Source: a virus
Strand: one strand, 5' to 3'
Length of the DNA: 26,211 nucleotides
Virus record (IMG/VR): IMGVR_UViG_3300048589_000349
Coordinates: 1 to 26,211 of that record
Shown here piece by piece: positions 1,200-23,934 of the stretch. Under the pieces are notes generated by a model. The model did not search any database. It was given only the letters and a program-made list of their open reading frames with translations, and was not told the origin of the DNA. The first letter of the stretch is position 1, and each line of letters starts with the position of its first letter. Made by a program: the position numbers and the translations under genes.

Positions 1200-1748
1200 C
1201 TAGCTCGTCTTCACAACCTGAACCACTGGCACGCGGCAAGCCGCGCTGATCGCCCGGTAAATTTCCGGCACCGGCACAGGAATGCTGTGCGTCAGGTAGC
1301 CGTCATTCGCCGCCGTCTTGACGCCGTACTTCTGTTTCCAGTACGCCGCGTTCCGACTCCACACGCGCCGCAATCCGTCCCACGGCAGCATGTAGACCGT
1401 CCTCACGTCCATGAGCGCGTAGGCGATAAAGTCCACGTTCAGCGGCTTGTTCATCCAGCCCGGCGCGCCGGTTTTGTCGTTGCTGAGAAACTCCAGCAGA
1501 ATGTCGGGGTTGCCGTCCGGATCGCAGTACGACTGCGCCCGCTTCTTTTCGTCCACGCGCACCTCGCGCCCGTTGGTCAGCACGATCACGCGGTCAACGC
1601 CGGTGCGCTGCGCGTTCACGTCGGGGATACACGGCGTCATAGACAGGAAATCGGGGAAATAGGCGCGGTACGCTGCTTCCCAAAACGCCTCGTCGGCTGG
1701 CTTCTGGCTGTAAGCGTTCTGCTGCTGAAAGTCATGGACGGCGTTCAC
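1200..1748 (-). CDS. Putative PD-(D/E)XK nuclease-fold protein
   Basis: A 182-aa protein starting at GTG 1746-1748, which overlaps the methyltransferase stop (GTGA); GAGGTGG lies just upstream as ribosome site. Residues 51-70 read GVDRVIVLTNGREVRVDEKK: an Asp (D52), two beta strands, then D66-E67-K68. This matches the D...(D/E)xK core of the PD-(D/E)XK nuclease fold, with a possible extra acidic residue E86 in DILLEF. A helical start (residues 18-35) and an aromatic C-terminal half with LPWDGLRRVW follow. The fold call rests on motif layout only. It could act as a restriction-type, repair or recombination nuclease, or be an inactive relative. Tight coupling to the adenine methyltransferase is suggestive of joint function. 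Confidence 0.5.
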   Translation of the reverse strand: MNAVHDFQQQNAYSQKPADEAFWEAAYRAYFPDFLSMTPCIPDVNAQRTGVDRVIVLTNGREVRVDEKKRAQSYCDPDGNPDILLEFLSNDKTGAPGWMNKPLNVDFIAYALMDVRTVYMLPWDGLRRVWSRNAAYWKQKYGVKTAANDGYLTHSIPVPVPEIYRAISAACRVPVVQVVKTS

Positions 1749-2776
1749 GCGGCCACCTCATTCCCCCAGCAGTCCCAGCCTTCGCGCGTATTGCGGGCGA
1801 ACAGTTCCAGGCGCGCCCAGTTGGGATACATGCGCTCGATCAGGTCATAGAAAAGGTGCGGCTTCTCGCTGTGCCGCCCGCGCGGCCACTCCTGCACACT
1901 GTCGGGCCGGGCGTCGGTCGCGGGTACCGGCGGGTGTCCCTTGACGGCGATCAGCAGCAGTTCGTGCCGCTGGCGCGCGTAGTAGCCCATGCCGATCGCG
2001 TCTTTCACCCACACCATGCACGTGCGATAGTTGAAGCCCCACGCCTCGATCACCTGCATGGCTTCGGCCAGCTTGGGGCTGGTGGCCCACATGAACAGCA
2101 CCGCGTCGTCAGCGGCCAGCGTAGACACAGGAAGCGCGCAGATTTCGGCCAGTTCCAGCGTGGGGTAGTGGTTCTCAATCGCGCGGTTTTCCGTTTCGAC
2201 ATGCTCGTAACGCCACGGCGGATCGGCGTAAATCACGCGGTACTGCCCCGCCGGAACGTCCTGCAACGCCTCGCGCCGGTCTTCCAGCGCCAGCGCCCGC
2301 CGTTCCAGCCGCGCCTCGCGCGTCTCTGCCTCACCCGCGTCCGGCGCAAGCCACGCCGCCGCTGTTTCGATTTCACCCGTCTCTTCGTCGATCTCGCGGA
2401 ACTGCTGAACCGCCTCTTTTGCCGCTGCGTAGGTGATCGATTCACCGGCCTGCGCCCGCGCGATCACGTACTGCGCCGTGCCTTCCGAAACCGACGGACT
2501 GGCCAGCAGGTACAGCGCAGAGGGGGCGATTGCCAAATCCGCAAAATTTGCGGATTTGAAACGTGCATGCACAGCCATGAAGTTCTGCGCCGTGCGTTCG
2601 CCCCAGTTGAATTCCTGCTGAAGCCAGTCCCCGAATTGCCCATGCTGAAGGCGCGCCTTGACTTCGATCAGCTTGCCGCCGATTTCCACAATGTCCTGCG
2701 CCGTGCGGCGCAGCATGGCGTGGATTTCAGCCGCCCGCTGGTTCACGAAGTCTTCGGTGGATAGGTCGATCTGCAT
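1745..2776 (-). CDS. DUF3102 / MT-A70 adenine-N6 DNA methyltransferase
   Basis: Two-part protein of 343 aa from the chosen ATG at 2774-2776. An AGGA site sits six bases before it; an ATG at 2794 that overlaps the previous stop is the alternative. Residues about 10-100 match the DUF3102 helical domain (IVEIGGKLIEVKARL, GQFGDWLQQEFNWGERTAQNF), a probable DNA-binding part. Residues about 180-335 are an MT-A70 methyltransferase with the catalytic DPPW motif at 185-188, followed by the usual MW, WVK and HSEKP elements. The family transfers methyl groups from SAM to the N6 of adenine. In phages this normally protects DNA from host restriction or alters regulation. No cognate restriction gene is certain, but a nuclease-fold protein is coupled downstream. 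A perfect DNA palindrome lies within the gene. Confidence 0.85.
   Translation of the reverse strand: MQIDLSTEDFVNQRAAEIHAMLRRTAQDIVEIGGKLIEVKARLQHGQFGDWLQQEFNWGERTAQNFMAVHARFKSANFADLAIAPSALYLLASPSVSEGTAQYVIARAQAGESITYAAAKEAVQQFREIDEETGEIETAAAWLAPDAGEAETREARLERRALALEDRREALQDVPAGQYRVIYADPPWRYEHVETENRAIENHYPTLELAEICALPVSTLAADDAVLFMWATSPKLAEAMQVIEAWGFNYRTCMVWVKDAIGMGYYARQRHELLLIAVKGHPPVPATDARPDSVQEWPRGRHSEKPHLFYDLIERMYPNWARLELFARNTREGWDCWGNEVAA
2534..2558. repeat. Perfect 12-bp inverted repeat inside the methyltransferase gene
   Basis: Left arm CAAATCCGCAAA (2534-2545), one central A, right arm TTTGCGGATTTG (2547-2558): 12 of 12 bases match. It encodes the methyltransferase residues FKSANFADL. 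Five codons here (GCA, AAT, TTT, GAT, TTG) are AT-rich or uncommon choices compared with the G/C-ending codons used around it, so selection on the DNA itself is plausible. It could be an operator, a replication or packaging site, or a site for the DUF3102 domain. Confidence 0.75.
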
Positions 2777-2790
2777 ACCGTTTCCTATCA

Positions 2791-2970
2791 TCATTTGTTC
2801 CGCTTCTGCAACACGCCAGGCATGGAAGTAACGTCGATGCCGTACTGCTTACGCAGCGCGACCCGGATTAACTCGGACATGTTCGTGTCACGCTCAACTG
2901 CCAGCTTGCGAAGGCGTCTGCGTTCATCCGCAGAGACCCACACCGCCAACAGTTTCCGCTCGTCTGCCAT
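2791..2970 (-). CDS. Ribbon-helix-helix (CopG/Arc-like) regulator
   Basis: A 59-aa protein. ATG at 2968-2970 is chosen because AGGAGG lies six bases upstream; a longer version starting at 3009 has no ribosome site and would begin inside the operator. Residues 5-48 form a typical ribbon-helix-helix: strand KLLAVWVS, helix ADERRRLRKLAVERD, turn and second helix MSELIRVALRKQYG. These proteins bind operator DNA as dimers and usually repress their own promoter. It is the first gene of the early minus operon. It stands divergent to the XRE regulator with an inverted repeat just upstream, so it is a likely Cro-like or early-operon regulator. Its stop overlaps an ATG of the methyltransferase gene. 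Confidence 0.8.
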   Translation of the reverse strand: MADERKLLAVWVSADERRRLRKLAVERDTNMSELIRVALRKQYGIDVTSMPGVLQKRNK

Positions 2971-4100: not shown

Positions 4101-5639
4101 ATGACGCAACGGGCGATCTTCTTTCTCGCCGTCTCCACCGAAGCGCAGGCCAGCGACGACCGCGATAGCCTGCCGGAGCAGCGCCGCCAACTCGACGCGG
4201 CGGCGGCACAGTTCGGCTGGCGCGTGGTGGACGTCATCGCCTTGCCGGGCCAGTCGCGCTCGCACTATACCTATGCCGAGATGGCGAACGAAGCCGCCGC
4301 CGCCGGGATGCCCGACGCCCTGCGCCTGTTCGACCACTGGCAGCGGCGCGATTTCGACGTGCTGGCCGCGCTCAACACCACGCGGCTCGGCCGCGATCAG
4401 TCCATCCTGGCGGAAGTCATCCGGCGCACCATCGACGCGGGCGCAACCGTCTACACGGTCAAGGACGGCTTCATCGACGCGCAGAACCAGCGCATGCATA
4501 TCGCCATGTCGGGCTACGCCACCGGCGCGGAGATGGACGAGTTCAAACGGCGGTTCCAGTTCGGCATGAACGCCCGCGTCAAGCGCGGCCTGCACCCGAA
4601 CCATATCCCGCCGACCCACCTTGCGCTGCGCAACGGCGCGGGTAGGGTAATCGCGGTTGAAGTCGACGAGTCGAAGCGCCGGCTGTTTGACGATATTTTC
4701 GAGCTGGTCGTGCATGAACGGCTCGCGCTCAATCGCGTGCCCGCCGCGCTGGCCGAACGCGGCCACCCGCCGCTGAACGAGTGGGCGGTCGACCGCTGGC
4801 TGCACAACCCGTACACCTGGGGGCACAGTTTCCGCCGCGCGCATACCGCCGCCCGCGCCCGTAACTGGCGCTGGGTGTTTGACGAGGCGCAGCCGCTGCC
4901 CGACGGCGTGACGATCTTCCGCGATACGCACCCCGCGGTATGGACGGGCACGCAGGCGGCATTGCTCAAGGCGGAACTGGCGCGGCGTATCGACCGCAGC
5001 CTGAAACGCACGATCACCACCACCGCCCGTTACAGCGGCCTGTGTCAGTGCGGCGAGTGCGGACGGCCCATGAATTACGACGGCCAGCACTTCACGACGC
5101 TTTCAGGCGCGGTCAACCGCTACCTGCGCTGTATTGGCCGACACACGTCCACCTGTCCCAACGCCGTGCGCGAAGACCAATTGACGGCGGACGTTCACCG
5201 CTTGCTGGAACAGGTTGAACAGGCCGGCCCCGGCGCGCTGCGTCCGCAAGGCGCGGCGCAGGAAGCCGAACGCCGCGCCGCCCGGCTGGCGTCGATTGCG
5301 GGCGAAATCGAAGCCGCCGAAGCGCGAGCGCGTCAACTGATCCGCAAGCAGGCCGCCGCGCCCGTCAGTCTGGCCGGCCTTTATGACGACGAATTGACGG
5401 CGCTCGGCGCGCAAATCGACGCGCTGCGCGCCGAACAGGCCCGCTTGCCCACGCCCGTCGTCACCACGCCCGCGCAGCTCGAAATCACCGCCCGCCTGCG
5501 CGCCGGTTCGGCGGCGTGGTTTTGGCAGCAGCCCGACGCCACACAGAACCAGTTGCTCGCTATCCTGCTGGGAGACTATCGCCTTGTCGTGCGCCGCCGC
5601 CGCGTCGTCGGAATTGAACCGCTCACGGCCAAACCGTGA
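4101..5639 (+). CDS. Large serine recombinase (phage integrase)
   Basis: 512 aa. Residues 1-150 are the resolvase/invertase catalytic domain with nucleophile Ser12 in FFLAVSTEAQ, the SLPEQRRQL helix, and TRLGRD (Arg95, Arg98) matching the R68/R71 pair of gamma-delta resolvase. A recombinase DNA-binding domain follows (about 165-290), then a zinc ribbon (C315, C317, C320, C344, C352) and a coiled-coil region (about 360-450), the layout of large serine integrases. The enzyme would cut attP and attB with a 2-base stagger and form Ser-linked intermediates. Two usual active-site residues differ: the Arg two positions before the nucleophile is Ala10, and the Asp before Arg95 is Thr94. The gene converges with the late operon and ends before a hairpin terminator. 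Confidence 0.9.
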   Translation: MTQRAIFFLAVSTEAQASDDRDSLPEQRRQLDAAAAQFGWRVVDVIALPGQSRSHYTYAEMANEAAAAGMPDALRLFDHWQRRDFDVLAALNTTRLGRDQSILAEVIRRTIDAGATVYTVKDGFIDAQNQRMHIAMSGYATGAEMDEFKRRFQFGMNARVKRGLHPNHIPPTHLALRNGAGRVIAVEVDESKRRLFDDIFELVVHERLALNRVPAALAERGHPPLNEWAVDRWLHNPYTWGHSFRRAHTAARARNWRWVFDEAQPLPDGVTIFRDTHPAVWTGTQAALLKAELARRIDRSLKRTITTTARYSGLCQCGECGRPMNYDGQHFTTLSGAVNRYLRCIGRHTSTCPNAVREDQLTADVHRLLEQVEQAGPGALRPQGAAQEAERRAARLASIAGEIEAAEARARQLIRKQAAAPVSLAGLYDDELTALGAQIDALRAEQARLPTPVVTTPAQLEITARLRAGSAAWFWQQPDATQNQLLAILLGDYRLVVRRRRVVGIEPLTAKP

Positions 5640-7014: not shown

Positions 7015-8907
7015 TTACGGACTCCCGCTCGCCAGCGCAGGCGCGGACAGGCCGTAGTTCGTGCCGTCATCCGCCGCCACCTGCATCGTCTCGGTGTTGT
7101 CGTACCACGTGAACGAGAACGCCCCATCGCCCGTGCGCGTGGTCGCCAGCACCGGCTCGCCGCTGGACGCACGCTGAAGCGTGATGTCCACCGTGCCCGC
7201 GTCCGAACCACTCACGCTATCCGCGACGGTGAACGTAATTGAGTGATAGGTGAGCATCAGATCGAGATGCGTAAAGGCGAGTTGGCCGCCGATGATGATG
7301 CGCCAGCGCCGCGCCGTCTCGATGTTGAGCCGGTCGCCGCCCTCAATGTCTCCGGGCCAGCGCGTAAACACGCTGCGGGCCGTGCCGTATCCGTAAAAGA
7401 TGCCGACCTCCGGGTCCGTCCCGCCGAGGCTTTCGTATACGTTCTCCCAATCGAAGCCGCCCTCCGCCACGAGCCTCTCCGCGCCAACTGCCAACCCGCC
7501 GTTGGTGAGCGTGCCGCTGGTGGTGTACATGGCCGCCACGCCAACGCCCGTGAGGAAGTAACTCGTCTCCGGGATGTTTGGCGCGTCCGACGCGCTCAGG
7601 TTGAACGCCGTTGCCGACTGCGTGCCTACTGTCATCAGGTTGCGAATGACCGTATGATTGGCCGCCCAGATTCCGTTGGCAGGCACGTCAGACGTATAGT
7701 TAATCAGCCACAGGCAGGACGTGTTGAAGCCGCAGTCGGCGGTGTCGGTGTTGTAGGTGTCGAGCGAGATGACGTTACGCCCCCGCGCCAGCGTGAACGC
7801 CGAGTCGTTACGCACCATGAAACCACACTGCCCGCCGAGCGTGGTGGCGACGCTCGTGTAGCCGACAAACGAACCCGTGCCTACTCGCGCATTGAGGCTG
7901 CTGATAGCCGCCGCCACGCTGTAGAACACCAGCGCCGCCACGCGCAGCGTCGTGATCGTTTCCGGCTCCTCGATGAACAGGTCGCGCTTGGTGCGGCTGT
8001 AGAGCGCAGAGGTGTTACCACCCATCGCGCCCGCCACTTCCATCGGTAGGAGCAGGCTGTTGAGGATACGGGTCGTGCCCGCCACGGTAAACTCATAGGT
8101 CACCGACAGCCACGCCTGCGGATGGTCAAAATCAGCCACGCTTGCCCACATCTGGAAATCCTGCGTGGCGTTGGTGGAAAAGTCCTGCGGTTGGGCAATG
8201 CGATACCACATATCGACGTTACTGCCCTTCTCGTACAATTGAGAGGTATAGGGCGTGCCGTCGCCACAATCGAAGGAAATTGTCAAGTCGGTTGCGCTGT
8301 TGCTTTCGGTGTTCCCCTGAATAACCACCGTGTACTGACGAATGACCACGCTCTGCTCAGGCAGGTAAGTGGACAGGTTCGGGATCGTGTCGTGTACGGT
8401 CGATTGTGTGGTAGGCAATGCGCCCGTAGGTGCGTTGAGCGGTATCCACACGGTCTTCAAATGCGCCGGCTGCGTGTCATCAAACGAGTAGGTGATGACG
8501 ACGCGGATACTGGCGTTGCGGCTGCCCAGTGGCGACGTGTTGATGGTGAGGCTGCAATCCAGCGTTCGACTGGCGTTCGCGCCCCAATTGGCATTGAAAT
8601 AGGCCGTGAAATCGGCGCTGAAAAAGTGCGTGAAATTCTCGCCCGACTGCGTGAGGGTTTGCGAGTTCGTGACCGTCGAGGCGGACGCACCCTGCAAGGT
8701 GAGCGTGGTGATGCGGCTGGTGACGTTGGTGGCAGTCGTGTACACGTCCGCCACCACCACGTCCGTGTAGACGCTGCGGAACGTGACCACGCCCGCCGCC
8801 GCCTCCGGGATGTACACGGTAATTTGCGTCGCGGCGGTGGCGGCGTTGTCGGCCAGCGTGTCGATCATGGGGAACCAGTATTCGACTGTTTTCAGGCGCG
8901 TTGCCAT
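7015..8907 (-). CDS. Large beta-rich virion protein, receptor-binding candidate
   Basis: 630 aa with GGAGG as ribosome site six bases before ATG 8905-8907. It is Thr/Ser/Asn-rich and beta-type throughout, with many aromatic residues and no membrane segment. The N-terminal half contains repeated strands such as TLDCSLTINTS and a SFDDTQP motif; the last 80 residues (TVADSVSGSDAGTVDITLQRAS onward in short strands) resemble an immunoglobulin-like or carboxypeptidase-regulatory-like sandwich. Size, composition and position after the lysis genes and before the repeat-built fibre suggest a tail fibre or baseplate spike. I do not recognise a specific family and no catalytic motif stands out. Confidence 0.6.
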   Translation of the reverse strand: MATRLKTVEYWFPMIDTLADNAATAATQITVYIPEAAAGVVTFRSVYTDVVVADVYTTATNVTSRITTLTLQGASASTVTNSQTLTQSGENFTHFFSADFTAYFNANWGANASRTLDCSLTINTSPLGSRNASIRVVITYSFDDTQPAHLKTVWIPLNAPTGALPTTQSTVHDTIPNLSTYLPEQSVVIRQYTVVIQGNTESNSATDLTISFDCGDGTPYTSQLYEKGSNVDMWYRIAQPQDFSTNATQDFQMWASVADFDHPQAWLSVTYEFTVAGTTRILNSLLLPMEVAGAMGGNTSALYSRTKRDLFIEEPETITTLRVAALVFYSVAAAISSLNARVGTGSFVGYTSVATTLGGQCGFMVRNDSAFTLARGRNVISLDTYNTDTADCGFNTSCLWLINYTSDVPANGIWAANHTVIRNLMTVGTQSATAFNLSASDAPNIPETSYFLTGVGVAAMYTTSGTLTNGGLAVGAERLVAEGGFDWENVYESLGGTDPEVGIFYGYGTARSVFTRWPGDIEGGDRLNIETARRWRIIIGGQLAFTHLDLMLTYHSITFTVADSVSGSDAGTVDITLQRASSGEPVLATTRTGDGAFSFTWYDNTETMQVAADDGTNYGLSAPALASGSP

Positions 8908-12328: not shown

Positions 12329-13972
12329 CTAGAACACCAGAACCGTCGATACGCCCAGCACGCTCAGGTCGGGGTCGCCCAGCACCCACCCGGCGTTGGC
12401 GCTGAAGTCTTCCAGATACCACGTCGTGCGCCACTGGCGCGTCTGCGCGTCCACCACATGACGCTCACCGGCTATCCACTGCGGCGGCAAACGGTCTCCG
12501 CCGCCTAAATACGAGTCGGCGACCTTGATCGCGTTGTAACCCGTGACGAACGCGGCGTTCCACAACGGGTCGCTGGCGTCGTCGGGGAAGTCGAATTGCA
12601 CGCGCCGGTAGCGGTTGAGCGGTTGCGCGTGTCGGCGCACATACGAGTCGGCGTACCGCCGCGCCAAGTCCAGGTCATCCACCCCGGCCACGGTCAGCGA
12701 CCGCTTGTGATAGCCGTAGGCTTGCACGGACGCGGCGTCGGCGGCCTTCAGCACCTGCGGCGTGCGCGCTGTCAACGGCGTGCCGCGCAGGCGCAGGAAC
12801 GTCACATACAACGGCTCGCTGCCACTGTTGCTCACGCGCACGTCCGCCGCCGAGGTGCGATTCTCGACGGCGATCCGCACGTCCGCCGTGCGATTTGCGC
12901 CGCTGCCATCCGCCGCGGCGTTGGCGCTGTAATCCAGGCTCGCCACCGGCTGCACCAGCGTCGTAGCGCTACATGTGCCGTCGGGGAAGTCGGGATCGCG
13001 GTAACGGGCGGTGAACTGGCGCATTTCGCCCGCCGGCAAGCTGAAGGCGCTGTCCGTGCGCCACAACTCCGTACCCGCCGCGCCCGCCCGCCGCGGGTAC
13101 ACCGTCAGTTCCAGTTCGTTGCACAAGTCGTCGCTGGCCGAATACTCCGTTTCATCCGTCAGAAACCGGCTGGCCGGAATGGTATCGACCGTCAGACTGC
13201 TGTACTGCTGCGCCAGCGCCGTGCGGCTGTAGAACACGTACAGCGGTAGGCGGTAGATCGTGTTGCAGGAGAACGAGAAACGCCCGCCCATCTCGGCGCT
13301 GCACATCTCGTCAATGAAGGCGTACAAGGACGTGCCTTGCCCGCTCGTGTCGAGATTATTGCCTACCCACTGAAGCGACGTATCCCCCCGAAACCAAATG
13401 AAATAGCTACTTGCCGAATACAGGCGCGTGGTTTCGCCGAGCTTGCCCGCCCCCAGCACCCACCAGTATCCGGGATAGGGCAGCGGCAACACGCCCGACT
13501 GAAACGCCTGCCCTACCGCGTTGCCGGTGTACTGGTATTGCGTCAGCGGGTGATCCCACGTCGTTTCCATGAGTTCGCTGTGCCAGTCGCCGAGCGTCAG
13601 CACCACGCGCCGCGCGCCCCACCGGCCCGGCGCGAGCGAGATATTGAGGATACGCAGCGCCAGCAGTGGCCACTTGCGAACCATCGGCGGCGCGGCGTTG
13701 CGCTTGCTGTTCTGATGCTCAAACAGGATGACGACGTTGCGGCGCAGCAGGTCACGATACAACGCGCCGGGCTGGTCGATATTGAACGCGCCGTCGCTGT
13801 TATCCAGCACGAGCGTGCCCTGCGCGGGCGGGGCCATCGTCTGGCCGGGCGCGTCAAAGCCGTACGCCCACTCGGCATACACCACGCGGCTGGTGATATC
13901 CGACAACGGGTGCGCGTAGGTCATATCGCGCCCCCAGTCGGCGTACACCTTGAGATCGTCAATCGCGGCCAT
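12329..13972 (-). CDS. Minor tail protein, distal tail candidate
   Basis: 547 aa, starting at ATG 13970-13972 in a TGATG overlap with the tape measure stop. The N-terminal 130 residues (VYADWGRDM, TLVLDNSDGAFNI, RRNVVILFEH, RRVVLTLGDW) have the beta pattern of distal tail or baseplate-hub proteins, and the gene sits directly after the tape measure, as distal-tail genes do. The middle contains MCSAEMGGRFSFSCN and ELELTVYPRR; the C-terminus resembles hub proteins that continue a curve-fitting beta domain. No enzymatic motif seen. Assignment rests on gene order and general pattern. Confidence 0.65.
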   Translation of the reverse strand: MAAIDDLKVYADWGRDMTYAHPLSDITSRVVYAEWAYGFDAPGQTMAPPAQGTLVLDNSDGAFNIDQPGALYRDLLRRNVVILFEHQNSKRNAAPPMVRKWPLLALRILNISLAPGRWGARRVVLTLGDWHSELMETTWDHPLTQYQYTGNAVGQAFQSGVLPLPYPGYWWVLGAGKLGETTRLYSASSYFIWFRGDTSLQWVGNNLDTSGQGTSLYAFIDEMCSAEMGGRFSFSCNTIYRLPLYVFYSRTALAQQYSSLTVDTIPASRFLTDETEYSASDDLCNELELTVYPRRAGAAGTELWRTDSAFSLPAGEMRQFTARYRDPDFPDGTCSATTLVQPVASLDYSANAAADGSGANRTADVRIAVENRTSAADVRVSNSGSEPLYVTFLRLRGTPLTARTPQVLKAADAASVQAYGYHKRSLTVAGVDDLDLARRYADSYVRRHAQPLNRYRRVQFDFPDDASDPLWNAAFVTGYNAIKVADSYLGGGDRLPPQWIAGERHVVDAQTRQWRTTWYLEDFSANAGWVLGDPDLSVLGVSTVLVF

Positions 13973-16302
13973 CAGCGATCCACCTGCCTGCGCCCAATAT
14001 TACTGCGCCCCGTGCGCGGCGACGTGCCCGGCGTGACGCCACCCGCGCCGTTGACGAGTTCGGCGATCAATTGGCTCAGCTTATCCTTGCCCAGGACCGA
14101 CAGGTCGAGTTCCAGCGTGTAGCGCTTGCTGAACACGTTATCGACGCCTTCCGCCAGCTTGTCGGTGGCCGTTTGCATATCGTCCGCCAGCCCCGCGCCG
14201 TCTTCCGCGATATTCGCCATGCTGGTTTCGGCCTGCAGCATGCTCGCCTCTAGCGGGTCAAACATTTCCGGCGCGAAATAGCCGCCCGCGGCCATGCCCG
14301 ACGTCGGCGCGCCGCCGAACGTGCCCACGGGCATGGAATAGGCGTTGGCTGCGCCGGTGGCGCGTAGCACCTCGTCCACCGTCATGTTTTCACGCGCCGC
14401 CACCGCGCCCGGCGTATCGCCCGGATTTACGGTGAAGCGCCGCCCGCCGCTCCCGCCCTGCGCGCCCCAACCGTAATAGCTCATGCCGGTGGAGCCACCC
14501 AGCACGGCCGCCCAGTCAATCGCCTGCCCGCCCCTGCCCGCCGCGGCCGCGTCTGCAATCGACTGCTCATAAGCTGTGCGTGCGGTCAGATAGGCGTCCG
14601 CGCCCCACTGCAGCGCCAGCGCCGTCAATTGGGGCGTCACTTCCTCGTCAAACTGCAAGCTGGCTTCGGTCAACTGCCCGGTATCCAGCCCCATCGCACG
14701 GCGTAGCGCAGCCACCGTGTCGGCGCTCGCGCCGCCCGCTTCCAGTGAAGCGAGAATACCCGCGTCGATTTCGCCCAAGCGCCCGCCACTGCCCTGCCCG
14801 AACAGTTGGGACAGGCTTGCGTTTGCGAGATTGTCGGCCCAGTCCGCCGCCGCGTCTGCGCCCGCCCTCGACGCCTCCGCCGCTGCGCGCAACGGCGTAA
14901 GCAGGTTATCCTCCAGGCCCGCGCCGTCCAGCCGGTCGACAAGCGTCTCAATTGCATACGCGGCGTTCTCCGCATCTTGCGCCGCCTCCGGCGAAATAAT
15001 GCGAATACCGCCCTGCAATACCGATCCGCTCAAAAGCGTTTGAAGCTGCTGCGCTTGCCGCTCGACGCTGAATATGTACGGCGAATAAAGCATCCCCATC
15101 CCCGCCGTCGGGTTGTCGCTCGCGGCGAAGCCGGGCCGGGCCAGCGTGCCGCCCGTGCGCGCGCTGGCCACTGTCACGCTGTTTTGCGCCGCAGCGACCA
15201 CCGCCGTGTATTGGTTAAACCACGACACGACGGACGCGGCCTGCTGTAACATTTGCTGGCCGGAGTCCGTATTGAACGCGTAATCGGTTGAAGATAGGCC
15301 AAACGCATTGCGAGTCAGTAAGTCCATGAAACCGGCGCTGCCCATGTCCATGCCGGACTGCTGGGCAAGAATGGCCGCGGTGAGCGCGCCAGAAATATTC
15401 TGGCCGGACAGGCTGCCTGCGCTGACCCCCGACGATGCAAACAACGGCGCGTACACGCCCGCCACAGTCTGCGCGTTGAGCAGGCTTTGCCCGGATGCGC
15501 CGCCCGAACCACCGCTGCCAAGCCGGCCGAGTTCTTCGAGAATGGAGTTGACCAGGTAGGCGAAATTGTCCGCAATGTCGGACGTGATATTTTCGATTTC
15601 CACGCGCATGCGCTGGAACGGCGTAATCGTCGCTTCGGCCACCGCGTTCATTTGCGGGGCCATGCCCTCGGCCACGTCAAGAAATGCCTGCGTGAACGCG
15701 CTGGCGCTATCCATGCCAGCCGCCCTGTATCCGTTGGACAGTTCCCGCACTTCGGCGCTGGAAATGCCGAGCGTATCCAAACGCAGGAAACTTTGGTTGC
15801 TAAGCAGCATTGACAGGTTTTGCAGCGACGCGCTCACGTCTTCGCCGCGTGCCTGCGCGAACGTGACGCCAATATCAACAAGACGCGCAACCTCGTCGGC
15901 GTTCTTGGCAATGCCCATACTGAGCATTGAACTGGACGCGTTCATGAGGTCGAGATCGGTCACTGTGCCGCGTGTTGCCGTCCGCAGCCGGTCAAGCAAC
16001 GTCGTTGTGTTTCCGATCTGCGCGCCAAAGGAGCGGAACAGCGTTTCGGTACGCTGCGTTTCCATGCCCAGCTCGTACACCTGCTGTCCCATGCGGACTG
16101 CGCCTGCAAGCGCAACGCCGGTGAACACCGTCGTCATGACGGTCTGCAAGCCGCCCATCGCCCGCTGCATGCCGGTTACGCCGCTACTGACGCTCTTGGC
16201 TTCCGTGTTGAGTTGGCGCAGCGACCGCGTGGCCTGCCCCACGGGCGAGGAAAGTTGGTCAGTCCCTTTCAAGGTCACTGTTACGGAATAGTTATCTGTC
16301 AT
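13972..16302 (-). CDS. Tail tape measure protein
   Basis: 776 aa, the largest protein of the late operon, placed after the two overlapping tail-chaperone ORFs as in lambda-like phages. The N-terminal 50 residues are polar and helical; a hydrophobic stretch follows (about 51-70, LQTVMTTVFTGVALAGAV), and the rest is mostly Ala/Gln/Ser-rich helix. At about 1.5 angstrom per residue it would specify a tail of very roughly 115 nm. A LysM-like segment lies at about residues 621-662. AAGGGGG lies upstream of ATG 16300-16302. The C-terminal end is basic (SPRTGRSNIGRRQVDR). Confidence 0.85.
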   Translation of the reverse strand: MTDNYSVTVTLKGTDQLSSPVGQATRSLRQLNTEAKSVSSGVTGMQRAMGGLQTVMTTVFTGVALAGAVRMGQQVYELGMETQRTETLFRSFGAQIGNTTTLLDRLRTATRGTVTDLDLMNASSSMLSMGIAKNADEVARLVDIGVTFAQARGEDVSASLQNLSMLLSNQSFLRLDTLGISSAEVRELSNGYRAAGMDSASAFTQAFLDVAEGMAPQMNAVAEATITPFQRMRVEIENITSDIADNFAYLVNSILEELGRLGSGGSGGASGQSLLNAQTVAGVYAPLFASSGVSAGSLSGQNISGALTAAILAQQSGMDMGSAGFMDLLTRNAFGLSSTDYAFNTDSGQQMLQQAASVVSWFNQYTAVVAAAQNSVTVASARTGGTLARPGFAASDNPTAGMGMLYSPYIFSVERQAQQLQTLLSGSVLQGGIRIISPEAAQDAENAAYAIETLVDRLDGAGLEDNLLTPLRAAAEASRAGADAAADWADNLANASLSQLFGQGSGGRLGEIDAGILASLEAGGASADTVAALRRAMGLDTGQLTEASLQFDEEVTPQLTALALQWGADAYLTARTAYEQSIADAAAAGRGGQAIDWAAVLGGSTGMSYYGWGAQGGSGGRRFTVNPGDTPGAVAARENMTVDEVLRATGAANAYSMPVGTFGGAPTSGMAAGGYFAPEMFDPLEASMLQAETSMANIAEDGAGLADDMQTATDKLAEGVDNVFSKRYTLELDLSVLGKDKLSQLIAELVNGAGGVTPGTSPRTGRSNIGRRQVDR
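14317..14442 (-). other. LysM-like segment within the tape measure protein
   Basis: Residues about 621-662 read FTVNPGDTPGAVAARENMTV then DEVLRATGAANAYSMPVG, matching the LysM pattern of [FY]TVxPGDT, a first helix, and a second helix with Asn/Ala turn. LysM binds N-acetylglucosamine polymers such as peptidoglycan. Flanks are Gly-rich linkers on both sides, which supports a discrete domain. Confidence 0.65.
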
Positions 16303-19181: not shown

Positions 19182-19619
19182 CTAGACGAGCTGCGCCACG
19201 CTCGACAAATCGACCTCGGACGCGGGCGTGTAGTCGATGCCGTCCGCCAGCGCGACCAGGCTGATGATGCTGGCCGCCGTGCCCACGGTCACCGCCGCGC
19301 GGATGTACCGGAAGCCCTGCGCGGCCACTTCGTCGGCGTTAACCTCGATCACCGCCTGCTTATTGTCGTCGGTCGCCTTGACCAACTGCGTGATCGCCTT
19401 GCCGGTGATCGTGGTCGTGTACGAACCGCCGCTGGCCGTATCGCCCTTGATGACCATGTCCACCGTCGCTGACGCGCCCAGCACGCCCGTGCTGAGAATG
19501 AACATGACACGCTGGTACGATTTCATGTCGATGGACGTGCTGGTGACGGTGGCCGCCCCCTGCGAAACGGGATTGAGGACGCTGACAATCGGCAGCGTTT
19601 CAATCATTTTTGCGATCAT
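19182..19619 (-). CDS. Capsid-region structural protein, decoration candidate (145 aa)
   Basis: Begins MIAKMIETLPIVSVLNPVSQ and is beta-rich with repeated Thr/Val strands (AATVTSTSIDMKSYQRVMFIL, split by turns; ATVDMVIKGDTAS; YIRAAVTVGTAAS). The family often follows the major capsid gene in siphophages and lacks a firm name; a head decoration or head-fibre role is plausible. It sits between two hairpins that isolate it from the capsid and connector genes, which suits independent high expression. AGCGAGG lies six bases before ATG 19617-19619. Confidence 0.6.
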   Translation of the reverse strand: MIAKMIETLPIVSVLNPVSQGAATVTSTSIDMKSYQRVMFILSTGVLGASATVDMVIKGDTASGGSYTTTITGKAITQLVKATDDNKQAVIEVNADEVAAQGFRYIRAAVTVGTAASIISLVALADGIDYTPASEVDLSSVAQLV

Positions 19620-19639
19620 GTTGTGCCTCGCTCTCGCTT

Positions 19640-19663
19640 AGGGCGGGCCACATAGCCCGCCCT
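19640..19663 (-). terminator. Perfect 9-bp hairpin after the capsid gene
   Basis: AGGGCGGGC (19640-19648), loop CACATA, GCCCGCCCT (19655-19663), lying 18 bases after the capsid stop. On the minus strand AAGCGAG follows, so no T-run: more likely an mRNA-stabilising or attenuating stem than a full terminator. Confidence 0.55.
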
Positions 19664-19680
19664 CGTTCGGGTTGTGGGAA

Positions 19681-21423
19681 CTAGTCGTTGAAGTTGATGA
19701 AGGCCGACTTGGTATAGGCCGAGCCGGGGCCGCCGAGCGTGATCGCGCTCTTGAGCCACGGCTTGCCGTCCAGTCGCTGGCCGAAGCGCCACGCCGACAG
19801 GCCGTTGTCGAAGTCGTAATACTCGTCAAACTCGATGTACAGGCCGCCGAGCGTGAACAGCATGTAGGCCGACAGGTCGACCAGCACGATGCAACCGCTG
19901 GCGTCCGCCTGCGCCACATGTTCGCTTTCCACCAGCCGGTAGCCGCGCAACGGCGGGTACACGTCCGACGTCGGCGTGACGAACGTCACGGTCGACCCGC
20001 CCGCCGCCGCGATGGCGTCGAGATCGGGCTGCAGCGAGGCGTGATGCACCCACATGCACTGCGCGCGGTCGCCGAAGCGCTTGAAACGCGCGAGCATGTT
20101 GGACGCGTCCGCCATGGCGAACAGGTTGTTCGTCGCGGGCGTCACGTCCACCTTGGCCGGCGCATTGAGGATGCCCAGCGGCTGGCCGACGCCCGTCCCG
20201 CGCAGGATGTAATACTCCAGCTTGGCGGCGGCGGCGTTGCCGATCAGCACAGTCATGAGGCTGTTCAGGTCAAACGGCGCGTCCTGGCGAAACTCGCGCG
20301 TCACCGGGATGATGCCGCTCACCGCGTCGCTCACGTCCCACGAAATCTGCTGGAAGCGGGCGTCGGTTGACGTGTACTGGCCGCTCTCGGCGCGAGTGGC
20401 CGCCGTGACGCGCCCCGCCGCCGCCGTGTCGCCCACGCCAGCCGTCGGCGCGGCGAACAGGTCGAGCGACGGCATTTTGCCCGAAGGCGCGTTCACCGGC
20501 GTCGTGGTCACCGCGTTCACGATGGGCGAGTTCTGCTGCATGACGCCGAGAATGGTCGCCATGAACTGCTCAGGGATGGTGTAGCCACCGCCCGCGCCGG
20601 TGCTTTCCGCCAGCTTGATTTCGTCGCGGCTGTAATAGCTCTTGATGGCCGCGCTATCGCGCTCGCGTACCGCCTTGAGGAAGCCGTTGAACCGCTTTTC
20701 GGTCTCGACCAGCTTGTCTTCCGTGACCGCGTACCCCACCGACTTGACCGGGGTGGTCAGTTCGGCGCGCAGCGCACTCAGTTCGTCGCGCAGGGCCTTC
20801 ACCTCTGCGCCCGGATCGGCGGCCTGTTCCGCCGCCTGCTTAATGTCTTCAGCCATGATCGGCTTCTCCTCTTGCGTCTCACCCTCGATACGAATGTCTG
20901 CAACGGGATCGCCCGCCGGTACTGGCGCAGTCTGCGTTTCCGCCTCTGCCGCGCCCTCCGCCGTATCGAGGTCTCCCGACGTTGCCTTGATTTGCGCCAC
21001 GCCTAGCGTGCGAGGCTCCGCTGGCGTCACGGTCAAGCTGAGTTCAGCGACCGGCCAGCGTTTGATATGCTTCTGTTCGTCACGGCGCACCAGGTGCGAA
21101 ACCGCGCCGGTACTCAACCCCACCACGCCGCGCTTGACCAGTTCCAGCACGTCATTCAGGTACTCGTGCGCCTTGTCGAGTTCGGCTTCGAACCAGACGC
21201 CGGTTTCGTCGCGCTTGGTGCTGACCACGCGCCCGATTTCGTTATCCAGCGCCTTGACCGACTGCTGCGCGTGGTCGTAAAAGACGGGCAGGTCGACCAT
21301 GCCGCCGAAGTTCGTCTCCGGTGTGAACGTGTCCCCGTCCAGATCGCGCCCGCCGAACACCACGCCGTAGCCCGCAATCACGGGCGTGCCGTCGTCGCGG
21401 TACTTGAGTTCCACTGCCTGCAT
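19681..21423 (-). CDS. Fused prohead protease and HK97-fold major capsid protein
   Basis: 580 aa. Residues 1-145 are a U35-type prohead protease: GYGVVFGGRDLDGD, catalytic His51 in VFYDHAQ, and Ser104 in GLSTGAVSH. Residues about 146-189 are an acidic Pro/Ala linker. From Met190 follows the capsid part: a delta-like coiled coil (about 195-260), a likely cleavage region near residues 270-276 (KLAESTGAGG), then the HK97 fold beginning YTIPEQFMATILGVMQQ and SPIVNAVTTTPV. Separate genes are usual; fusion forms are known. An internal ribosome site precedes Met190, so capsid protein could also be made alone. The fused protease would cleave the delta domains during maturation. Confidence 0.9.
   Translation of the reverse strand: MQAVELKYRDDGTPVIAGYGVVFGGRDLDGDTFTPETNFGGMVDLPVFYDHAQQSVKALDNEIGRVVSTKRDETGVWFEAELDKAHEYLNDVLELVKRGVVGLSTGAVSHLVRRDEQKHIKRWPVAELSLTVTPAEPRTLGVAQIKATSGDLDTAEGAAEAETQTAPVPAGDPVADIRIEGETQEEKPIMAEDIKQAAEQAADPGAEVKALRDELSALRAELTTPVKSVGYAVTEDKLVETEKRFNGFLKAVRERDSAAIKSYYSRDEIKLAESTGAGGGYTIPEQFMATILGVMQQNSPIVNAVTTTPVNAPSGKMPSLDLFAAPTAGVGDTAAAGRVTAATRAESGQYTSTDARFQQISWDVSDAVSGIIPVTREFRQDAPFDLNSLMTVLIGNAAAAKLEYYILRGTGVGQPLGILNAPAKVDVTPATNNLFAMADASNMLARFKRFGDRAQCMWVHHASLQPDLDAIAAAGGSTVTFVTPTSDVYPPLRGYRLVESEHVAQADASGCIVLVDLSAYMLFTLGGLYIEFDEYYDFDNGLSAWRFGQRLDGKPWLKSAITLGGPGSAYTKSAFINFND
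20854..20873 (-). promoter_or_regulatory. Internal ribosome site and start for capsid-only translation
   Basis: Inside the fusion gene, AAGAGGAG (20866-20873) lies nine bases before ATG 20854-20856, which is Met190 in frame. Starting here gives a 391-aa protein (MAEDIKQAAEQ...), the normal size and start of a free HK97-type capsid protein with its delta domain. Confidence 0.6.
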
Positions 21424-21425
21424 GG

Positions 21426-21884
21426 TTATCTCCCCTGCATACTCTGCCGGAAGCCGGTCACGAACGTGCTGAACGCCGCGTCGGCTTCCTGCTCCACCAC
21501 GTCGGCGGTTGATTTCCAGCCGAGCGAGCGCATGTACAGCGATTGTGACGTTGCGCCGATCACGTAAGGCGCGTATTCGGCGTCATTGCCGACGATCTGC
21601 GTGTAGCCCCCGTCGGCTTCACTCTGCCCCCACTTTTTGGCAAGGTTGCTGCTGCGCCGGTAGGGCAGGCGGATGCGCCCATCGCGCAGCGCCGCGAAGA
21701 AATAGCGCCGCTGCTTTTCGCTCACGAACGGCTGCGGCGGGCGGTTGCCGTCCGTCGGCGGGTAGACGCTGAATTTGCCGCGCAAGTGGCCCGCCATCGC
21801 CTTCAGGCCCGCTTTGAACGCCGTACCCTGCTCCAGCTTCGCCAGCATACGCTGTACCGCCGCGTCGTCTATCGTCACACTCAT
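21426..21884 (-). CDS. Small head-region protein (152 aa)
   Basis: Begins MSVTIDDAAVQRMLAKLEQG; start ATG 21882-21884 overlaps the head morphogenesis stop (ATGA). It has an N-terminal helix, a PPTDGNRPPQPF loop, KQRRYFFAALRDGRI, and a C-terminal helix with DVVEQEADAAFSTFVTGF. The layout is similar to phage HK97 gp10-like or minor capsid proteins, but the match is weak. It lies two bases before the protease-capsid gene. Possible neck, completion or scaffold role. Confidence 0.6.
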   Translation of the reverse strand: MSVTIDDAAVQRMLAKLEQGTAFKAGLKAMAGHLRGKFSVYPPTDGNRPPQPFVSEKQRRYFFAALRDGRIRLPYRRSSNLAKKWGQSEADGGYTQIVGNDAEYAPYVIGATSQSLYMRSLGWKSTADVVEQEADAAFSTFVTGFRQSMQGR

Positions 21885-22540
21885 GGCTGCGTCGCTCCGC
21901 GAAGTTCGGTCGAGATTCCGCAGCGGCAGCGCGGATGGTACGGTGGGTAGCCCGCTTCGCTGACCGGCTTGCCGTTCTGCGGCCCGCAGATGGCACAGAC
22001 CAGTTCGTCGTTGCTGGTGCCGACGATTTGCACCGGTTGCAGCCCGAGAGCTTCCAGCTCGCGCGCGAACGCCTGTTCCCCCGCGCTGGCCGCCCGCGTC
22101 ACTTCGGTCACGGCGATCATTTCGCTGCGTACCGGCCCGAACGCCGTCGCCAGCCGCGCTTCCAAATCGGTCAGCGTCATGCGCTGGCTAAAGTAGTCGC
22201 TTACCGCCCCTTGCAGCAGTTGCCGGTTCGTGTCGTTGAGTTTGGAGACCAGCTCGAAGCTGTACCGGCGCGCCCAGTCGATAGCCCGCGCGTGCAACGC
22301 CGCGCTGTCCACGCCCACGTTGAGCGCTTCGCTGGCGGCCATACCCGCACTAAACGCGACGCCTTCCAACTCAGCCTGAATGACATTCTGATAGGCCTGG
22401 GCAATCGCTGACCACTCGTTTTCGTCAATGCGCCCGTCCTCAATGGCGGCCAGCAGCCGCCTGCGCGCTTCCGCGTTCGCCTTGCCCAGCCGCCGCGCCA
22501 GCGCCGCTTCGCGTTCAGCCCGATCCGCCAGATCGACCAT
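21881..22540 (-). CDS. Head morphogenesis protein (phage Mu gpF / SPP1 gp7-like)
   Basis: 219 aa from ATG 22538-22540; a TTG at 22561 in the same frame is weaker and would overlap the portal gene. A long helical N-terminal part leads to the family signature at the C-terminus: ELVCAICGPQNGKPVSEAG then YPPYHPRCRCGIS, with four cysteines and a histidine likely binding zinc. These minor head proteins are packed with the portal and take part in head assembly or DNA ejection. The gene directly follows the portal, the usual place. Confidence 0.85.
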   Translation of the reverse strand: MVDLADRAEREAALARRLGKANAEARRRLLAAIEDGRIDENEWSAIAQAYQNVIQAELEGVAFSAGMAASEALNVGVDSAALHARAIDWARRYSFELVSKLNDTNRQLLQGAVSDYFSQRMTLTDLEARLATAFGPVRSEMIAVTEVTRAASAGEQAFARELEALGLQPVQIVGTSNDELVCAICGPQNGKPVSEAGYPPYHPRCRCGISTELRGATQP

Positions 22541-22542
22541 GG

Positions 22543-23934
22543 CTACGGATACCCCACCCAACGCGCCGCGTCGTCAAACACCGCCTTGACCGCCGCCGCG
22601 TCCGCTACGCCGTCGATCTGGCCTTCGATGGCCGCTACCGTGACAGCGGGCAGGTGTTCGGCTTTGAACGGGCGGGCGGGCTGCTTGCCGTCCTTTAGCC
22701 GCTTCACGACGAACCGTTCCCAGGCCCGCAGTTCGGCGCGCTGATTGTCCGCCGGGTTGTCCTGCGGTTCAGGCAGCGCCGCGACCGTCTCCTGTTGGGC
22801 GGGCGCGCTATCGGGCGTGTCGAGTTGCGGATCGTCCAGCGGCGTGAAGCCGACGCGCTGGCGCAGTTCGTTGATCGTAATCACGCGCCGGTCAAACAAC
22901 TGTGCGAGCGCCGTCACCTGTTCGCCGTTCGCCTGCTGGTACAGTTCCAGTTCCGACTCGGCGGTTTCAACCGTCAGCCCGTACTCGGCCAGCACTTGAT
23001 CGTTGAGCGCCGACAGGATGCGCTTGACCAACGGAATGACGGTCAGATCGTAGAAGTTCAGCGCGTCCTGGTGACTGGTGGCGAAGTTGGCGGCGTTGGC
23101 GCGCAGGATGCTTTCAGGCACGCCCAGCGCCGACGCAATATCGCGCCACTTGCTATCGGTCAGTTCCGGCATAGCCAGTTCGCCGGGTTTATCGCCCAGC
23201 GTCTGCGTGGTGATCGTCGTGCCCACCGCCAGCGGGCGGAAAGCGTTACGAATACCCGCGACCTTCTGTTCCAGCCAGCCCTGCACGCGCTGGCGTTCGG
23301 CGTCCTGCACCATGCCTTCAAACGTCACCAGTGTGGGCCTTATCGCGCCGTTCTGGAACAGGAACGCCGTCGCTTCGTCAATGGCCGTGAGCGCGCCCGC
23401 CGCGGCCAGCGCCGCCTGCGCGGGTGACGTGCCCGGCCCGATTTCGCCGGTGCGATTGGGCAGCCACACGTACACCAGATCGCCCACCGCGAGCGTCACC
23501 TGCCGCCCGTTGGCCGTGCGCGTGAAGCCGGTCAACCCGGCCTGCGCGTCGATGACGGGCTTGATCGTGGTGGGCAGCATGCGCCGCAGGGTCGTCACGC
23601 GCCCGCGCGCGCTGCGCCCCAGAAACACATAGGCCGCGCCGTAGAGCATGAGATCGCCCGCCATGGCGTTGAGCAGGTCGCCGAGCGATTGCGCCCAGTC
23701 CGCAGGCGCGTCGGTCGCTTCGCCGTTGGCCTTCAGCCAGCGCAGGGGCAGCGACCCGACGGCGTTACTGACATGGTTGACCCCGGCATAGAGCGGGGGC
23801 AGGACGCGGTAATAGGCGGCGGGCGTGCCCACGTCGGGGCGGCCGAACAGGTCGCCCCACTGGTCAGGCGTCAGGGCCGACAGGGGTATGCTTTTGGTTG
23901 CGCCACGCGCCAGCAGTACCGATTTCGTCGTCAT
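22543..23934 (-). CDS. HK97-type portal protein
   Basis: 463 aa. Start ATG 23932-23934 is chosen for GAGGTG seven bases upstream; an in-frame ATG at 23985 would overlap the terminase. Family marks include PLYAGVNHVSNAVGSLPL, a LLNAMAGDLMLYGAAYVFLGR helix (in part), VYVWLPNRTGE, and ALGVPESILRANAANFATS, the typical HK97 portal segment. The portal forms the 12-fold ring through which DNA is packed and ejected. Followed by the Mu-F-like gene three bases on. The C-terminal 100 residues are Pro/Ala/Gln-rich and probably flexible, ending in a helix. Confidence 0.85.
   Translation of the reverse strand: MTTKSVLLARGATKSIPLSALTPDQWGDLFGRPDVGTPAAYYRVLPPLYAGVNHVSNAVGSLPLRWLKANGEATDAPADWAQSLGDLLNAMAGDLMLYGAAYVFLGRSARGRVTTLRRMLPTTIKPVIDAQAGLTGFTRTANGRQVTLAVGDLVYVWLPNRTGEIGPGTSPAQAALAAAGALTAIDEATAFLFQNGAIRPTLVTFEGMVQDAERQRVQGWLEQKVAGIRNAFRPLAVGTTITTQTLGDKPGELAMPELTDSKWRDIASALGVPESILRANAANFATSHQDALNFYDLTVIPLVKRILSALNDQVLAEYGLTVETAESELELYQQANGEQVTALAQLFDRRVITINELRQRVGFTPLDDPQLDTPDSAPAQQETVAALPEPQDNPADNQRAELRAWERFVVKRLKDGKQPARPFKAEHLPAVTVAAIEGQIDGVADAAAVKAVFDDAARWVGYP

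Follow-up and report, generated by a model that had tools for sequence, protein, structure and literature searches.

The window, that is, the whole stretch of 26,211 nucleotides that was analyzed (IMG/VR record IMGVR_UViG_3300048589_000349), codes on its minus strand for a prohead protease and a major capsid protein fused in a single gene. Profile matches identify the neighboring genes as a terminase, a portal, a MuF-like protein, and a head-tail connector, which confirms that this region is the head module of a tailed phage. The features of the fusion gene, including its Shine-Dalgarno (SD) motifs, are the following.

19681..21423, minus strand: protease-capsid fusion ORF of 580 aa with an ATG start and matches to TIGR01543 and TIGR01554
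21430..21435, minus strand: GGGGAG, the SD that serves Met1 at a distance of 6 nt (script energy, -9.2 kcal/mol)
20980..21423, minus strand: S78-type prohead protease domain, approximately residues 1-148 (TIGR01543 at residues 15-146)
21271-21273, minus strand: His51 codon (alignment A2)
21112-21114, minus strand: Ser104 codon (alignment A2)
20857..20979, minus strand: variable linker, approximately residues 149-189, not conserved in the relatives L002 or L004
20866..20873, minus strand: putative internal SD, AAGAGGAG, 9 nt before Met190 (-10.3 kcal/mol, the best in the ORF)
20854..20856, minus strand: ATG of Met190, the candidate internal start codon, where the RNA of the ORF is least structured
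20614..20856, minus strand: scaffold-like (delta) segment, approximately residues 190-270, starting with MAEDIKQAAEQAADPGAEVKALRDELSALRAEL; the TIGR01554 match runs from residue 183
19735..20589, minus strand: HK97-fold major capsid core, residues 279-563 (PF05065, E=2.7e-30)

The capsid part of the 580-aa ORF is an HK97-fold major capsid protein, as both profiles match in full and over their cutoffs (TIGR01554 at residues 183-563, E=2.6e-45, 155 bits versus a cutoff of 27.5; PF05065, 106 bits versus 24.2). The protease match is weaker, with TIGR01543 reaching E=3.5e-7 and 30.5 bits, under the curated cutoff of 59, and PF04586 (Peptidase_S78) giving no match in the window protein at E<=0.01. 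PF04586 is, however, over its cutoff in two fused relatives, L002 and L004, and His51 (in FYDH) and Ser104 (in GLSTG) are invariant across the fused relatives in the three-sequence alignment A2. The preliminary description of a U35 protease and an HK97-fold capsid in one ORF holds; U35 is the old MEROPS name of what is now S78 (Pfam PF04586). A PDB sequence search with the fusion protein gave no meaningful match, and the AlphaFold2 model built from the three-sequence alignment (pLDDT of 34) was of no use. By analogy with the mcpN domain of HK97 (PMC10275583), we infer a helical role for the scaffold-like segment. Within the phage collection, the closest relative of the window protease (ca. 39% identical) is found in Salinibacter phage B2_17 (L008:4312-6831) and its relatives from Salinibacter, as part of an 839-aa protein with no other recognized content that is followed by a separate capsid gene.

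Other genes of the window deserve a brief mention. The MuF-like head morphogenesis protein (226 aa, 21881-22561, minus strand) carries 64 N-terminal residues with a weak resemblance to regulators of the CII/YmfL type (phrog_101, E=8e-5; NF041471, E=0.001), an odd pairing. In the tail region, three long ORFs on the same strand (7015-8907, 12329-13972, and 13972-16302) have no Pfam match and no or weak PHROG matches. There is also an MT-A70-type DNA methyltransferase with a DUF3102 region at its N terminus (1745-2794, minus strand), while a large serine recombinase, with resolvase and recombinase zinc ribbon domains, is coded at 4101-5639 on the plus strand, opposite to the structural genes, which suggests a temperate phage.

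Within the fusion ORF, the boundary between linker and scaffold-like segment resembles the start of a gene. The motif AAGAGGAG (20873-20866) ends exactly 9 nt before Met190, and 391 aa comprising scaffold and capsid remain from there to the end of the ORF, just as had been proposed from the sequence. With a simplified nearest-neighbor script in which G-U terms are approximate, the anti-SD pairing energy at Met190 (-10.3) is the best among the 40 in-frame ATG, GTG, and TTG codons scored, Met1 having -9.2. The 71 nt around Met190 have a minimum free energy of -10.4 kcal/mol, whereas the median for the ORF is -24.5; none of the approximately 545 windows scored within the ORF is less structured. 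The SD could nevertheless be fortuitous, as a Glu/Gly-rich linker can encode GAGGAG-like motifs that serve no function. Tests confined to the window leave room for this explanation, since an equally good SD arose in 11% of codon permutations of the junction segment (p=0.11) and in 46% of synonymous recodings (p=0.46), neither of them significant; the Glu-rich linker readily encodes such a motif. As the window-only tests are weak, the case rests on comparative evidence.

A second way to obtain the capsid alone would be an internal promoter producing a separate capsid transcript, as in the nested assemblin/scaffold genes of herpesviruses. The same two proteins would result, but a consensus scan of positions 19400-22000, covering sigma-70-like promoters only, found none, and the conserved signal described below is an SD. 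We therefore assign a practically negligible probability to this option.

Fusions of the window's own branch are scarce in IMG/VR, where we found only two others, L002 and L004. Viral scans for their close kin returned only themselves and an unfused capsid (L040). Contig L001 adds no comparative information, its sequence being 100% identical to that of the window. L004, which is 33% identical to the window, has AAGAGGAG 8 nt before an ATG just after the protease, at the same junction, although the site is encoded there by the peptide IRGVKTM and in the window by EEKPIM. At its junction, L002 lacks an ATG with an SD and instead has GGGTGGAG 5 nt before a GTG, with two candidate GTGs. In general, fusions up to approximately 35% identical to the window have, at the junction, a start codon that follows a strong SD and lies in open RNA, and a different linker peptide each time.

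To extend the comparison, the planctomycete fusion L014 was searched against annotated phages, which gave 56 records matching at least 80% of the query, all of them full-length protease-capsid fusions. They include VP882, phiHAP-1, Jilinvirus, RcCronus, and marine roseophages. Helicobacter prophages and Escherichia coli phage JLK-2012 joined this set, and none of the annotated records that were read marks an internal capsid start. A good SD nevertheless stands before the initial in-frame ATG past the protease in most of them. From several phage lineages we drew 24 nonredundant fusions and took in each the in-frame ATG that comes first after the protease, without selecting it by its SD. A strong SD (<= -6.5) precedes this codon in 18/24 fusions, compared with 49/331 of the other in-frame ATGs (p=6e-10; the sequences compared are phylogenetically related, so that this and the other p-values are approximate and overstate independence). 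The RNA is also open at this ATG, with a median rank of 0.03 versus 0.50 elsewhere (p=6e-11). Frame matters as well, as strong SDs in the same segments precede 21/44 in-frame ATGs but only 3/28 out-of-frame ones, and the segment permutation, combined over 23 fusions, gave p=3e-7. In approximately one-quarter of the fusions, the first ATG does not follow a strong SD; Xanthomonas phage M29 and the cyanophages L019 and L021 are among these. The cyanophage cases possibly reflect a lesser reliance on SD pairing in cyanobacteria. The JLK-2012 fusion (L041) has, 24 codons past its junction Met193, a second in-frame ATG (L041:2219, residue 217) with an SD of -16.4 that lies in highly structured RNA.

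The pattern was replicated in a second set, obtained by searching 392 Planctomycetota genomes with the model NF045541. We kept 25 new fusions that were <70% identical and in which the end of the protease could be located, 23 of them with an ATG within 71 aa. A strong SD was present in 18/23, versus 44/298 elsewhere (p=2e-10). Two exceptions, L047 and L064, have a strong SD at a later ATG, and two others have it at a GTG. The preliminary description had pointed to the SD region of homologous fusions as the place to look, and in both sets most fusions indeed keep the signal there. Although the window by itself could be explained by chance, the combined permutation, the Planctomycetota replication, and the out-of-frame ATGs, which do not have the signal, speak against it. 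Given this comparative evidence, chance appears unlikely as an explanation for the class, and we consider this reading overall to be extremely improbable.

The junction itself also looks like the beginning of a gene. Across seven Jilinvirus-like fusions, the 25 residues that precede the Met have an ungapped identity of 11%, and the sequence that follows it approximately 60 to 61%; in six planctomycete fusions, identity rises from 12% before the junction Met to 40% after it. RNA openness forms a single peak centered on this codon that is gone approximately 15 codons to either side, and in L004, L037, and L041 the model for standalone capsids, TIGR01554, begins near the junction Met. The real starts of six unfused capsid genes look much the same, with an SD of approximately -7.7 to -9.3 in five of them and an openness rank of <=0.036 in all six. 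Protein constraint alone does not account for the retained SD, given how far the junction linkers have diverged, and under selection for internal initiation one would expect SD and open RNA to persist despite a differing linker peptide, as they do here. The fusion, the SD with its ATG, the openness of the RNA, and the conservation of this arrangement are features present in the sequences themselves.

A start with these properties could also be a relic, if neighboring protease and capsid genes had fused recently and the old capsid start had been left unused. Salinibacter phage B2_17 has a relative of the protease and a capsid as adjacent separate genes, which makes fusion by loss of a stop codon plausible. 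However, an unused SD should decay, and this one persists across lineages while the linker has diverged to approximately 11% identity, so we regard a relic as very unlikely.

Taken together, the data support the initial proposal of an internal ribosome start for the plain capsid. Very probably, judging from these comparisons, one gene and one message provide two in-frame starts, one for a protease-tagged form and another for a plain capsid form. Ribosomes initiating at Met1 would produce the protease-linker-scaffold-capsid protein of 580 aa, and those initiating at Met190 a scaffold-capsid protein of 391 aa, which is about as large as an unfused capsid precursor of the HK97 type. The plain capsid would be the major product; the internal SD is stronger than that of the first start in 12/18 fusions with a known first start, the window included, which is consistent with such a ratio, while the first-start SD is equal or stronger in the other 6/18. 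The long form would then be a minority subunit that brings the protease into the procapsid. As the capsid domain is common to both forms, the long one could be expected to coassemble. In HK97, the scaffold is the N-terminal domain of the capsid protein itself, and its helical towers project into the procapsid (PMC10275583), so a protease joined at that point would be delivered inside. The protease would subsequently cut the scaffold segment off all subunits.

The alternative to two starts is that only the fusion is made, with each subunit carrying its own self-cleaving protease and the SD-like site not being used for initiation. Many phages are annotated with single-chain fused-protease capsid genes and no internal start, and if the protease removed everything N-terminal of the core, the band seen in mature virions would hide a second start. 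Nevertheless, this explanation would place a protease on every subunit, and it gives no reason why an SD, open RNA, and a sharp rise in conservation should fall on one and the same Met in most fusions of two independent sets. We consider it unlikely.

Dual-start translation in frame is probably a general rule in the S78 protease-capsid fusions of tailed phages. If so, many genes annotated as "major capsid protein" would each specify two subunits, a plain one in the majority and a protease-tagged one in the minority, and this would account for how a phage with a fused protease can keep it from sitting on every capsid subunit. Many phages, relatives of VP882, phiHAP-1, Jilinvirus, and RcCronus among them, would also need a different annotated N terminus for their main capsid protein.

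The best-known parallel is the C/Nu3 pair of phage lambda, in which nested in-frame starts yield a long protease form and a short form with a common frame and C terminus, the internal start supplying an excess of the partner. The window gene likewise has an in-frame candidate internal start with an SD after the protease domain. However, the short product of lambda is the scaffold only, and its capsid protein E is coded by a separate gene, whereas the short product of the window would comprise scaffold and capsid, as the ORF runs through the capsid core to position 19681; in addition, the window protease is of the S78 type. Both lambda proteins and their interaction have been listed (PMC3224144). 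The gp4 protease and gp5 capsid of HK97, where the scaffold domain is at the capsid N terminus and in a 1:1 ratio with the capsid (PMC10275583), belong to the same families as the window fusion. They are nevertheless two separate genes instead of a fused one.

Among fusions, a known case is Salmonella phage Gifsy-2, with a tripartite capsid gene that holds protease, central domain, and capsid, the protease being ClpP-like. In ES18, the coat is encoded by a separate gene. The curated model NF045541 (scaf_prot_MCP2, prohead protease/major capsid protein fusion; cutoff of 525 bits) has the same domain order as the window protein, which does not match it at E<=1, and its description mentions no internal start; L031, L020, L014, and L029 match it below the cutoff, and it is mostly their protease and linker that align. 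NF045540 is described as a ClpP-like prohead protease/major capsid fusion, unlike the S78-type protease of the window, and a search with it gave mostly partial-model matches, none over the cutoff. The available part of the source on the capsid-protease fusion of Arthrobacter phage Powelldog mentions no internal start. Protease-capsid fusion is thus already known, both from these two curated models and from the report of such a fusion in a phage (PMC12760985). In the open-license papers searched, we came across no account of a capsid start inside such a fusion gene. What appears to be new is the internal start giving a plain capsid protein from a fusion gene, together with its spread among these phages.
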